Source: Cyanobacteria bacterium FACHB-63 (GTDB lineage Bacteria; Cyanobacteriota; Cyanobacteriia; Leptolyngbyales; Leptolyngbyaceae). From it: a stretch of DNA of 64,000 nucleotides. The stretch covers positions 186,001 through 250,000 of the forward strand of contig JACJNX010000040.1 of assembly GCA_014695255.1 (NCBI GenBank), read 5' to 3'. Positions 514 to 7,806 of the stretch are shown in pieces (the first letter of the stretch is position 1; each line of letters begins with the position of its first letter). Both the position numbers and the translations under genes were made by a program. Under the pieces are notes generated by a model. That model saw only the letters and a list, made by a program, of their open reading frames with translations. It was not told where the DNA came from and did not search any database.

Positions 514-678
514 ATGACAACTACAACCAGTCAGACTCAAGCTCAAATTCCTCCCGCACCCGTTCCATTGGAACCGCCTCAAGGAGATCCGACAACGACG
601 CTGATTCTTGCGATCGCATTTCTTATCAAAACCACTGCCGTCTCGATCGCTATTCTGCTCAAAGCGACTAAGCGCTAA
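514..678 (+). CDS. small single-pass membrane protein beside the NACHT gene
   Basis: This 54-residue ORF has ATG at 514, GAGG at 501-504 as ribosome binding site, and TAA at 676. Residues 1-28 are Thr/Gln/Pro-rich (PPAPVPLEPPQGDPT). Residues about 29-49 form one hydrophobic segment (LILAIAFLIKTTAVSIAILL), followed by a basic tail ending KATKR. There is no signal-peptidase site. It is divergent from the HTH-NACHT gene, with 146 nt between their starts. I do not know a function. A membrane effector or accessory of the NACHT protein is a hypothesis drawn only from position and size. Confidence 0.55.
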   Translation: MTTTTSQTQAQIPPAPVPLEPPQGDPTTTLILAIAFLIKTTAVSIAILLKATKR

Positions 679-694
679 ATTTCAAACGCGATCG
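673..694 (+). repeat. 22-bp direct repeat, copy 1
   Basis: This 22-bp segment spans the stop codon of the small ORF and is identical to 1032-1053. It begins CGCTAAATTTC and ends CGCGATCG. The two copies bracket the 21-bp array, which suggests duplication of the small ORF's 3' end or a recombination footprint. Confidence 0.8.
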
Positions 695-723
695 TCTCCT
701 CACTCTGCGTTTCACAATCCAAC

Positions 724-975
724 ACTCGCGCTTGAGTTTCAAATACTCAACGACGAGTCTCAGATACTCAAGCACGAGTCTTAATCACTCAAGCGCGACT
801 CTCAAATACTCGACGACGAGTTTCAGATACTCAAGCACGAGTTTCAGATACTCAAGCACGAGTCTTAATCACTCGTCGTTGAGTATCTGAATCTGATTCA
901 CGAGGATTGATCGCTCGCGCTTGAGTCATTAAGACTCGTTCACGACTGTTTAAGCTGCATTGATGAGTCATCAGA
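724..975. repeat. array of twelve 21-bp palindromic repeats
   Basis: Twelve units start exactly every 21 bp, at 724, 745, 766, 787, 808, 829, 850, 871, 892, 913, 934 and 955. Each has the layout ACTC-N6-GAGT-N7, a small inverted repeat. The first eight are well conserved; the core is commonly ACTCAAGCACGAGT. Units nine to twelve are degenerate but keep the phase. A 21-bp period equals two turns of B-DNA, so all palindromes face the same side of the helix. It is also seven codons, but stop codons in the frame of the upstream ORF (TGA at 733 and 880) argue against coding. There are no spacers, so it is not CRISPR. Confidence 0.85.
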
Positions 976-980
976 GTTCA

Positions 981-1037
981 ATGTCGAAGAAGAGAACGGC
1001 GATCGCCTCTCTGCTCATTCATACGGTCAAACGCTAA
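981..1037 (+). pseudogene. remnant copy of the small membrane ORF
   Basis: An 18-codon frame (ATG 981, TAA 1035) ends TAIASLLIHTVKR, resembling the end TAVSIAILLKATKR of the ORF at 514-678. It continues into the same 22-bp sequence over the stop. The N-terminal part is missing. I read it as a decayed or partially duplicated copy rather than a working gene, since it is very short and no clear ribosome binding site was seen. Confidence 0.4.
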
Positions 1038-1053
1038 ATTTCAAACGCGATCG
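1032..1053 (+). repeat. 22-bp direct repeat, copy 2
   Basis: Identical to 673-694 over 22 bp and again covering a TAA stop codon. It lies just before the pmbA gene. Confidence 0.8.
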
Positions 1054-2499: not shown

Positions 2500-3795
2500 T
2501 TGATTGAGCGTTACACCCTGCCTGAAATGGGCGATTTGTGGACGGATCACTATAAGTTCAAAACCTGGCTACAAGTTGAAATTGCAGTGTGTGAAGCACA
2601 AGCAGAGCTAGGTTATATTCCCCAAGAAGCCGTCGAAGAAATTAAAGCCAAAGCGAAATTCGATGTCGATCGCATTCTCGAAATCGAAGCGCAAGTTCGT
2701 CATGATGTGATCGCATTTTTGACCAACGTGAATGAATACGTTGGTGATGCTGGACGCTATATTCACCTAGGCATGACCAGTTCAGACGTGCTGGATACCG
2801 CACTGGCGCTGCAAATGGTGGCAAGTCTAGATGTGATCATGACGCAGGTAGAAGCGCTGATCCAAGCGATTCGATATCAGGCGCAACAACATCGCAATAC
2901 CGTGATGATTGGTCGATCGCATGGGATTCACGCAGAACCGATCACGTTTGGATTTAAGCTTGCAGGCTGGTTAGCTGAAATGCTGCGCCATCGCGATCGT
3001 CTCTGTGCGCTGAGGAAGTCGATCGCGGTCGGTCAAATCTCCGGCGCGGTTGGAACTTACGCCAATATTGATCCGCGTATCGAAGCGTTAACCTGCCAGA
3101 ACTTAGGATTAGAACCCGATGCCGCTTCAACGCAGGTGATTTCCCGCGATCGTCACGCGGATTTTATGAATGGCTTGGCATTGTTGGGAGCCTCGATCGA
3201 GCGGTTTGCGGTTGAGATTCGCAACTTGCAGAAAACTGATGTCCTCGAAGTCGAAGAATTCTTCTCGAAAGGACAGAAAGGCTCGTCTGCAATGCCGCAC
3301 AAGCGGAATCCGATTCGATCGGAGCGCTTGACCGGAATGGCGCGTCTACTTCGAGGTTACGCAACCGCTGCACTCGAAAACGTCGCACTCTGGCATGAGC
3401 GCGATATTTCGCATAGCTCGGTCGAAAGAGTTGCCCTTCCAGATGCCTGCATCCTGACGCATTTCATGCTGGTTGAGACTACAGATTTGATCAGAAATCT
3501 GCTGGTCTATCCCGAAAACATGGCGCGAAATATGAACGTCTATGGTGGCGTTGTATTTAGTCAGCGCGTGATGTTGTCGCTAGTGCAAAAAGGTTTGAGC
3601 CGGGAAGATGCTTATGCGATCGTCCAATCCTGCGCTCACCAAGCTTGGAACCGCGACGATGGCAACTTCCGCAAACTCTTAAGCGAAGACCAGCGCGTAA
3701 CTCAAACCTTATCGCCTGCCGAACTCGATGAATGCTTTGATCCACAAGTTCACCTGAAGAACTTAGATCAGGTTTATCAGCGCTTAGGCATTTAG
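2500..3795 (+). CDS. purB: adenylosuccinate lyase
   Basis: PurB acts twice in purine synthesis, splitting SAICAR to AICAR and adenylosuccinate to AMP with release of fumarate. The signature SSAMPHKRNP is at about residues 262-271. The other active-site regions GMTSSD (about 91) and GRSHGIHAEP (about 140) are intact. I chose TTG 2500 because the family starts MIERYTLPEMG and this gives 431 residues, the usual length. An in-frame TTG at 2479 would add seven residues. Its stop overlaps the convergent stop of the lipoprotein gene by four bases. Confidence 0.9.
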   Translation: MIERYTLPEMGDLWTDHYKFKTWLQVEIAVCEAQAELGYIPQEAVEEIKAKAKFDVDRILEIEAQVRHDVIAFLTNVNEYVGDAGRYIHLGMTSSDVLDTALALQMVASLDVIMTQVEALIQAIRYQAQQHRNTVMIGRSHGIHAEPITFGFKLAGWLAEMLRHRDRLCALRKSIAVGQISGAVGTYANIDPRIEALTCQNLGLEPDAASTQVISRDRHADFMNGLALLGASIERFAVEIRNLQKTDVLEVEEFFSKGQKGSSAMPHKRNPIRSERLTGMARLLRGYATAALENVALWHERDISHSSVERVALPDACILTHFMLVETTDLIRNLLVYPENMARNMNVYGGVVFSQRVMLSLVQKGLSREDAYAIVQSCAHQAWNRDDGNFRKLLSEDQRVTQTLSPAELDECFDPQVHLKNLDQVYQRLGI

Positions 3796-4589
3796 CGCAC
3801 TTGAACTGCAAAGGTGTATTCGTACCCTTTGTAGTTCGACTCAAACTGAAGCGTGTAATCTCCGGATTCGGGTAGCTTGCCCGTCCAGGAACCCTGCTCG
3901 TCTGGCTTCTCGACCAACATCTTGCCACTAGGCGAAATGACCATCGGGAGAAACTTGCCGCGATTGCTGGCACTCGTCAAGGTCATTTGCTGCCCTTTGG
4001 CGAGATTGAGGCGGTAACTATGCGTTCCGCCACCGATGAAGCGATCGCGAATCTCGATCGAGTCTTGTTCCCTGCCAAACTGAACGCGCTCGGTTTTTTC
4101 ACCACAAGTATTGTCCGTTCTGTTTTTGGCAATCCATCCGGGCGTTTCACCGCTGATTCTGAACCAGCCATCTTGCTCTTCTTTGACATCCACATACGTC
4201 CCATTTTTTAGCTGTCCGACAATGTTCTCGGTTGTGGTTGCTTTGGGAGACGATCGTACATTTAGTGGTGAATCTGGATCGTTGACTCTTGCCATAAGGA
4301 TTCGGCATTTCTCAACCGTTCGAGTGGCTTGAGTAGATGTATTGCCTGGTGTATCAGGCTCAGAATTGGGTGGAGTGGGAGATTCTGAAGCAGTCTCGTT
4401 GCTTGTATTGCTCTTTGTGATCGGCGTAGGAGATTCTGAAACAGATGGAGAAGGACTAACAGAAGGGCTAGGAGTTGTGCTGTTGTTTTGTGCGATCGGT
4501 TGAGATTGAGGCGTAGAAGCACAGCCTGCAACCAGTGTAAGAACCGTAACAACTCCAATTAGGCGTGACCAGGAACCGTGAAGCAGCAT
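3792..4589 (-). CDS. SH3-domain lipoprotein with PPC-like C-terminus
   Basis: 265 residues. A lipoprotein signal ends in the lipobox LVAGC with Cys23. A Ser/Thr/Pro-rich linker spans about residues 24-90. A bacterial SH3 domain follows at about 93-162 (PLNVRSSP, GQLKNGTYVDV, DGWFRISG, GWIAK). The C-terminal part (about 175-265) ends with GDYTLQFESN, resembling PPC/beta-sandwich domains; a similar domain closes the kinase at 39277-41139. It is probably an envelope-anchored protein that binds the cell wall, but substrate and role are unknown. It is transcribed toward purB and divergent from trhO. Confidence 0.7.
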   Translation of the reverse strand: MLLHGSWSRLIGVVTVLTLVAGCASTPQSQPIAQNNSTTPSPSVSPSPSVSESPTPITKSNTSNETASESPTPPNSEPDTPGNTSTQATRTVEKCRILMARVNDPDSPLNVRSSPKATTTENIVGQLKNGTYVDVKEEQDGWFRISGETPGWIAKNRTDNTCGEKTERVQFGREQDSIEIRDRFIGGGTHSYRLNLAKGQQMTLTSASNRGKFLPMVISPSGKMLVEKPDEQGSWTGKLPESGDYTLQFESNYKGYEYTFAVQVR

Positions 4590-6723: not shown

Positions 6724-7806
6724 TTAACGCTCTAGCGATACAAATGAAGAACCTCTGCTATGCCCGTTTTGGCTATACTTCTCGGCTAAAATCTGACGAT
6801 AAACCGCTTCATAACCATCAACCATCTGTTTTACACTAAAGTTATTTTCAACGTGCTTGCGACAATTGAGTCGATCGACCTCATGAATTCGATGCACTGC
6901 TGCAACACATTCATCCACGTTTTGACACAAGAATCCAGTTTTTTCATGGGCAATTACCTCGGAAGTTGCTCCAAGTTCCAGCGCAATCACCGGCGTTCCC
7001 GCTGCCATTGATTCAATCATGACGAGTCCGAACGGTTCCCGCCACGTAATTGGAAATAGCGTTGCGATCGCATTTCCCATCAGTTGATTCTTCTGAACAT
7101 GATTTGCCTCGCCCAGATATTGAATCTGTTCCCCGTCAATGTGCGGCTTGATTTCCTGCTCAAAATAGTCCACATCGACACGATCGATCTTACCTGCCAT
7201 TTTCAGCGGGTATCCCGTGCGCTTGGCAATCTCGATCGCATGGTGTGGCCCTTTTTCCGGAGAAAGTCGCCCTAAAAAAGCCAGATACGGCGGCGTGTCT
7301 GGCTGAGAATAAAATTGATGGGCGGAAGGATCAATCCCGTTATAGACAGTGGCAACGTAATTCAATCCTAATCGGGGTTCTCTCTGAGTATTAGAGATAC
7401 TAACGTAGGGCTGGGATTTCGCGAAACTAAAGGCTTTCTGATTATCTAAACTGAATGTGCCATGTAAGGTGTGTATAGTAGGCGTTTTGACCAACTGAGC
7501 GCAGGCTAAAGCGGCAAAACCGATATGTGAATGAATAATGTCAAAGTTGTGAGCATTTTGATAAACGCGATTTAGCTCGATCGCTTCATAAACATTGAAT
7601 TCCTGAACTGATGGATCAAGGCGTAGTGCGGTAGGGTGAATCGCATCGAGTTTTGCCTGAGTTGTAGAATCCCCAGTCGCAAACAAGGTCACATCGTGCC
7701 CTCGGCGAACTAGCTCCTCGGTTAATAGACTCACCACGAGTTCTGCACCTCCATAAGCTGGAGGAGGAACCGTTTCCCATAAAGGAGCAATCTGAGCAAT
7801 CCGCAT
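6724..7806 (-). CDS. glycosyltransferase family 4
   Basis: A GT-B fold retaining glycosyltransferase of about 360 residues. The N-terminal acceptor domain opens MRIAQIAPLWETVPPPAYGG. The C-terminal nucleotide-sugar domain has LGRLSPEKGPHHAIEIAK and the EPFGLVMIESMAAGTPVIAL stretch with the family's E-x7-E motif. I start at ATG 7806; an upstream in-frame start at 7842 would add twelve residues unlike the family. Substrate is not readable from sequence. It stands alone, so no cluster hints at its product. Confidence 0.85.
   Translation of the reverse strand: MRIAQIAPLWETVPPPAYGGAELVVSLLTEELVRRGHDVTLFATGDSTTQAKLDAIHPTALRLDPSVQEFNVYEAIELNRVYQNAHNFDIIHSHIGFAALACAQLVKTPTIHTLHGTFSLDNQKAFSFAKSQPYVSISNTQREPRLGLNYVATVYNGIDPSAHQFYSQPDTPPYLAFLGRLSPEKGPHHAIEIAKRTGYPLKMAGKIDRVDVDYFEQEIKPHIDGEQIQYLGEANHVQKNQLMGNAIATLFPITWREPFGLVMIESMAAGTPVIALELGATSEVIAHEKTGFLCQNVDECVAAVHRIHEVDRLNCRKHVENNFSVKQMVDGYEAVYRQILAEKYSQNGHSRGSSFVSLER

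Follow-up and report, generated by a model that had tools for sequence, protein, structure and literature searches.

A 64,000-nucleotide stretch of the genome of the cyanobacterium FACHB-63 (hereafter the window) carries, near its left end, a phased array of 21-bp units. On the sequence evidence laid out below, we give an even chance to the reading that this array is a gene-less member of a two-part system, consisting of a small, all-helical protein, P158, and a non-coding array of units that are each two DNA turns long. The distribution of such arrays suggests that the family is tied to P158, not to the NACHT gene next to the window array, and that protein and array together represent a new kind of protein-and-array system.

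The window array comprises 12 register slots starting at position 724 with a pitch of exactly 21 bp, and remains in register to about position 968. Scored against the eight bases of an ACTC-N6-GAGT core, the slots at 724, 745 and so on to 955 reach 8, 8, 8, 7, 8, 8, 8, 8, 5, 7, 7 and 5. The initial annotation had described twelve ACTC-N6-GAGT units, one every 21 bp; the register and the number of slots hold, but only seven units are exact, three carry one mismatch and two are poor. Eight consecutive ACTC-N6-GAGT-N7 units (724–884; seven exact, one with GACT) are followed by a degenerate, in-register tail of four slots (892–968; core scores of 5, 7, 7 and 5 out of 8). Ten units of one register match at least seven of the eight core bases, compared with two in the best of 2000 Markov-1 shuffles, and Tandem Repeats Finder recovered the period of 21 independently. 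Together, the core and its 7-bp linker set the half-site centers at alternating distances of 10 and 11 bp, which gives each turn one half-site. An ACTC/GAGT pair of the window array would constitute one putative dimer site. The linker is A-rich on the + strand up to position 870 and reversed from 871; since the orientation of the units flips at this point, a strand of the array can also fold on itself. CRISPR loci have cas genes, and unique spacers separate their constant repeats; the array was rightly set apart from them at the outset, as its 21-bp units stand head to tail without spacers.

Upstream of the array lies a 54-aa ORF (514–678, + strand) of no assigned family, whose C-terminal half is hydrophobic. 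The array is bracketed by two copies of a short direct repeat, the left copy at 643–695 (+ strand, ending in CGCTAAATTTCAAACGCGATCG) and the right copy at 1008–1053 (+ strand). The last codons of the ORF are partly repeated in the right copy, which resembles the 3′ end of the ORF, as if the end of the gene had been duplicated around the array. At this locus, full-strength units number eight in the window's own genome (G000, 7.2 Mb), ten in G006 and three in G001; the ends are constant, and the degenerate tail is kept in the latter two genomes as well. Identities of core, N6 and N7 between the orthologous arrays are 97, 80 and 71% for the pair G000–G006, and 73, 45 and 52% for the pair G000–G001 (p = 4e-4).

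The gene ending at position 412, whose 5′ part occupies positions 2–412 on the − strand and which extends beyond the window, encodes a 689-aa HTH_3-NACHT protein. The initial annotation had named the HTH of this protein as the nearest DNA-binding candidate for the array. The gene and the array are indeed neighbors in G000 and G006, and in G001 they are found together at a different locus. However, there is no general association of arrays with NACHT genes across genomes. Only two of the 22 NACHT matches in G000 have an array at a distance of about 1 kb or less (on contig C115, which is the window, and on C179), leaving 20 without one, and these two account for two of the roughly ten arrays of that genome; moreover, the NACHT protein at the C179 array gave no HTH match. 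The search of other cyanobacterial genomes for arrays beside HTH-NACHT genes, proposed with the original claim, uncovered widespread arrays, but in the Nostoc-type genome G333 none of 17 arrays lies near any of the 17 NACHT matches, the closest pair being about 23 kb apart. Given this distribution, we consider it highly improbable that the neighboring HTH binds the window array. The second G001 locus (C39) has the HTH-NACHT gene and an array at a different genomic place, away from the pmbA-like gene; because the two are found together there, they can move as a block. Such movement is no rule of the array family.

Arrays of the ACTC type number in the hundreds in Nostocales and their relatives. 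In G000, a two-unit pattern with one mismatch allowed gave 62 matches, against none for a backward control; these matches make up about ten arrays, spread over several contigs. Exact two-unit matches occur in 19 of the 388 genomes of the class, the highest number, 106 pairs, being that of a family f32 genome, and among the matches listed from a scan of 84,980 species are Nostoc, Scytonema, Brasilonema, Westiellopsis, Fischerella, Tolypothrix, Microseira and others. The register is kept strictly: of the 785 spacings of up to 150 bp that separate exact cores, 777 are multiples of 21. The half-sites follow a 7/6 order in 1061 cases, and in the 35 cases with a 6/7 order, in which ACTC lies one base over, the total is still 21 bp. 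Across 631 internal units, picked blind to how they themselves scored, each core base is 95–100% constant; the consensus is ATcAAAG for the linker and R-Y-Y-S-R-C-like for N6. The arrays inspected hold about 8 to 20 units, in which substitutions accumulate and the register is retained.

Clustering of the genes adjacent to arrays revealed P158, a helical protein of about 158 aa, as the most recurrent immediate neighbor, with the array in that clustering always at the 3′ end of its gene. When 600 bp on each side of 92 P158 genes, chosen blind to arrays, were scanned for any period from 14 to 50, a phased array was found directly 3′ of 74 genes and on either side of 87, while five were left without a detected array. 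The lags of the 74 significant 3′ flanks were 21 (40 cases), 42 (29), 43 (4) and 44 (1). By comparison, phased flanks were detected for 3 of 179 control genes (p = 6e-45) and for 1 of 53 genes of the window; of the 58 other genes at the P158 loci, 12 showed phasing on the 3′ side as well, in flanks that they may share with P158. The arrays are placed from about −19 to +284 bp relative to the P158 stop codon, and a period of 21 or 22 bp beside the gene is a property of the P158 family. ACTC arrays beside P158 are all located 3′ and in one orientation (10/10), whereas near other genes their orientation is random (39:38).

The ACTC/GAGT motif is present in only part of the P158 arrays, the rest being built from different 21-bp units. 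Among paralogues of the same genome, the array consensus sequences are mostly no more alike than expected by chance, yet the period stays at 21; orthologous P158 genes can share an array motif. P158 arrays contain more inverted repeats than expected (combined p = 8e-13), and a palindromic consensus, found in 11 of 69 P158-linked arrays, is not general. ACTC-type arrays are also scattered in genomes away from the P158 gene, and such genomes carry P158: it was found in all nine sampled cyanobacterial genomes with at least two exact ACTC pairs vs 41 of 233 others (p = 4e-7, which is optimistic, as the genomes are related). The window array itself is not beside a P158 gene, none being present in the surrounding 12 kb, yet its motif is that of a P158-linked array on another contig of the same genome (C138), and for these reasons we regard it as a satellite. 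In one genome with 11 P158 matches (G060; L320–L328), several divergent paralogues have their phased array on the 5′ instead of the 3′ side.

P158 proteins share the motifs PFLxxL..ER..L.KMGD+S.AFV, ILPASF and YDYVK as well as a basic C-terminal tail (mean charge +2.8). They gave no significant match in Pfam, NCBIfam, PHROGs or the PDB, including none to transposase, Rep, Par or toxin families; an assignment as HicB was considered and rejected. Two AlphaFold runs yielded only helices of low confidence, and a search for a constant partner gene among the P158 neighbors found none. On our preferred reading, P158 acts on phased arrays, probably by binding its cognate array as repeated dimers, each helical turn presenting one half-site on the same side of the DNA. 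The regular nucleoprotein stretch thus formed could act on the P158 gene itself; where arrays are scattered, it could affect DNA structure or expression in the vicinity.

An alternative reading places the function in the RNA: transcribed behind the P158 coding region, the repeats would bind or titrate P158, much like the repeat RNA of type III toxin-antitoxin pairs, with the scattered arrays serving as sponges or decoys. In keeping with this idea, the array sits at the stop codon, in constant sense behind P158 in the ACTC-type cases, and arrays fold better than dinucleotide shuffles on both strands (z from −1 to −10), as would any array of short palindromes. However, the four core pairs show 95, 82, 15 and 51 single changes as opposed to a handful of double changes, inner positions pair no more than expected, and the scattered arrays are random in orientation. 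Furthermore, a period of 21 that is kept while the sequence changes wholly points to a constraint of B-DNA and not to hairpins, whose length would be free. A structured RNA family was rejected, as covariation was lacking and an Rfam search with the array returned only sub-threshold chance matches to microRNAs. We therefore judge a functional array RNA to be unlikely. A helical, protein-read DNA site is favored instead, because the core is conserved over the linkers, shifted units still total 21 bp and compensatory changes are few. The DNA-binding platform with palindromes on one DNA face that was initially envisaged fits the strict 21-bp register, the 10/11-bp half-site spacing, the conserved core and the near lack of compensatory changes; its proposed NACHT partner is not supported.

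The arrays are mostly intergenic and rarely lie less than 75 bp from a gene start; gaps between convergent genes are over-represented (32 of 88 array gaps vs 63 of 334 gaps). Some arrays run in frame inside genes, at domain borders, namely in genes that we read from their sequences as encoding a GH38-type enzyme and two histidine kinases (L192, L185 and L195). Since 21 bp correspond to seven codons and open frames run through several arrays, including some within real genes, the array might be taken to code for a heptapeptide-repeat protein. Yet the in-gene arrays use different reading frames from gene to gene, and silent positions of the core are conserved. The longest ORF across the window array is a 52-aa repeat, and frames over P158-linked arrays are open at about chance level (1.3 vs 1.0 of six), with 24 of 69 such arrays having no open frame, in agreement with the original view that the array is not a readable ORF. 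Because silent core positions are kept and open frames are at chance level, the constraint acts on DNA or RNA and not on a peptide, and we regard a heptapeptide-repeat protein as a very remote prospect.

Placement inside linkers of unrelated enzymes, the preference for convergent-gene gaps and the avoidance of gene starts would also suit selfish minisatellites or REP-like arrays that spread alone or with the help of P158, the period then reflecting the length of the seed. Arrays are, in addition, missing from most orthologous loci of the genus, and the strains differ by whole units at the window locus (see above). On the other hand, a single protein family is flanked by unrelated sequences of equal period, the core is under selection at orthologous sites, and P158 lacks a transposase family match. 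The one empty site that was aligned shows no clean insertion boundary, and a clean insertion with target duplication was rejected, as the valS locus of G000 has extra sequence in its flanks and lacks a clean boundary. We hold selfish spread to be rather unlikely, and prefer the reading as a system of P158 and its arrays.

The link between P158 and arrays holds in metagenome-assembled genomes (MAGs) of Azoarcus, Prevotellaceae and Bacteroidetes. A pattern scan located an array in the Azoarcus MAG directly behind a P158 homologue (E = 9e-28). P158 was present (7, 3 and 1 matches) in three of five non-cyanobacterial genomes reached only via their arrays, and most copies have an adjacent array, with a lag of 21, 22, 42, 43, 44 or 63. 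Because these genomes are MAGs, contigs may have been misbinned, but P158 and its array lie on a single contig. In Aquimarina (Bacteroidota), a clean nine-unit ACTC-N6-GAGT array (L106, 3090–3272) lies between convergent genes with no P158 nearby. An explanation of the non-cyanobacterial matches as coding repeats was rejected for Azoarcus and Aquimarina, as both are real arrays. Plasmid pTs417 of Thiodictyon encodes a P158 homologue of 36–37% identity beside a pyruvate kinase gene (L289, 3001–3468), at which no phased array was detected.

Plasmid iterons and centromere sites (Rep/iteron, ParR/parC) are phased arrays of one- or two-turn sites beside the gene for their binding protein. Unlike these, P158 arrays are chromosomal, with several paralogues per genome, scattered copies and no Rep or Par match, and blastn found no array match in 72,556 plasmids or in phages. 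In type III toxin-antitoxin systems (ToxIN), repeats specifying RNA units of about 34–48 nt, which inhibit an endoribonuclease toxin, stand upstream of a small protein gene; the P158 system resembles them in having tandem repeats beside a small protein gene but P158 has no toxin family match. Rickettsia palindromic elements are palindromic DNA that occurs in frame inside genes at tolerant places but, unlike the arrays described here, are single, not phased and not known to have a linked gene. The small dispersed repeats of Nostoc punctiforme described by Elhai et al. in 2008 are reportedly 21–27 nt long and scattered, some families showing compensatory RNA-type pairing; they are single elements, whereas the present arrays are phased.

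REP/REPIN elements with their RAYT (TnpA-REP) genes are also palindromic, extragenic, scattered repeats, together with a gene flanked by its own repeats (PMC3116915, PMC8266576), an arrangement that P158 and its arrays share. They differ in that the present arrays are tandem with a fixed 21-bp period, in that P158 paralogues go with unrelated motifs, and in that RAYTs are Y1 HUH transposases, while P158 has no significant match in Pfam, NCBIfam or PHROGs. The GGGNATC heptamer repeats of Nostoc (PMC4692102) and the TAACTGA repeats (PMC4679880) are, like ACTC arrays, intergenic tandem repeats of filamentous cyanobacteria with variable unit number; unlike ACTC arrays, they have 7-bp units related to G-quadruplexes or start codons, and their abstracts mention neither a palindrome nor a linked gene family. 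A search of the open-access literature found no description of such 21-bp cyanobacterial arrays. Despite falling outside each of these classes, the P158/array pair may work like an iteron, REP or repeat-RNA system.

More tentatively, and with less confidence than in the reading of the window array, we suggest that P158 and its arrays could form a widespread system in at least three phyla, in which every P158 recognizes the array of its own gene, motifs vary freely from one paralogue to the next at a constant two-turn period, and the action reaches over the chromosome through the scattered arrays; it would then provide an orthogonal set of chromosomal DNA scaffolds across these phyla. A protein family with no assigned function is nearly always found beside a non-coding array of free sequence and two-turn period, and this link accounts for a class of intergenic tandem repeats for which the open-access search gave no description. 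If P158 reads its own array, the family would offer a large natural collection of protein–DNA pairs, each with a specificity independent of the others, and would constitute a new layer of chromosome organization or regulation in filamentous cyanobacteria and others; it would also give direct access to what protein and array do.

Two further settings of arrays were noted. At two related G000 loci, on contigs C30 and C89 (L177 and L178), which we read from their sequences as probable type I restriction-modification loci, a similar array lies between hsdM-like and hsdS-like genes. At another locus (L182), two arrays about 4 kb apart (3559–3845 and 7142–7407) each follow a similar KNEQFFL-coding stretch and a gene that we read from its sequence as Uma2-like.
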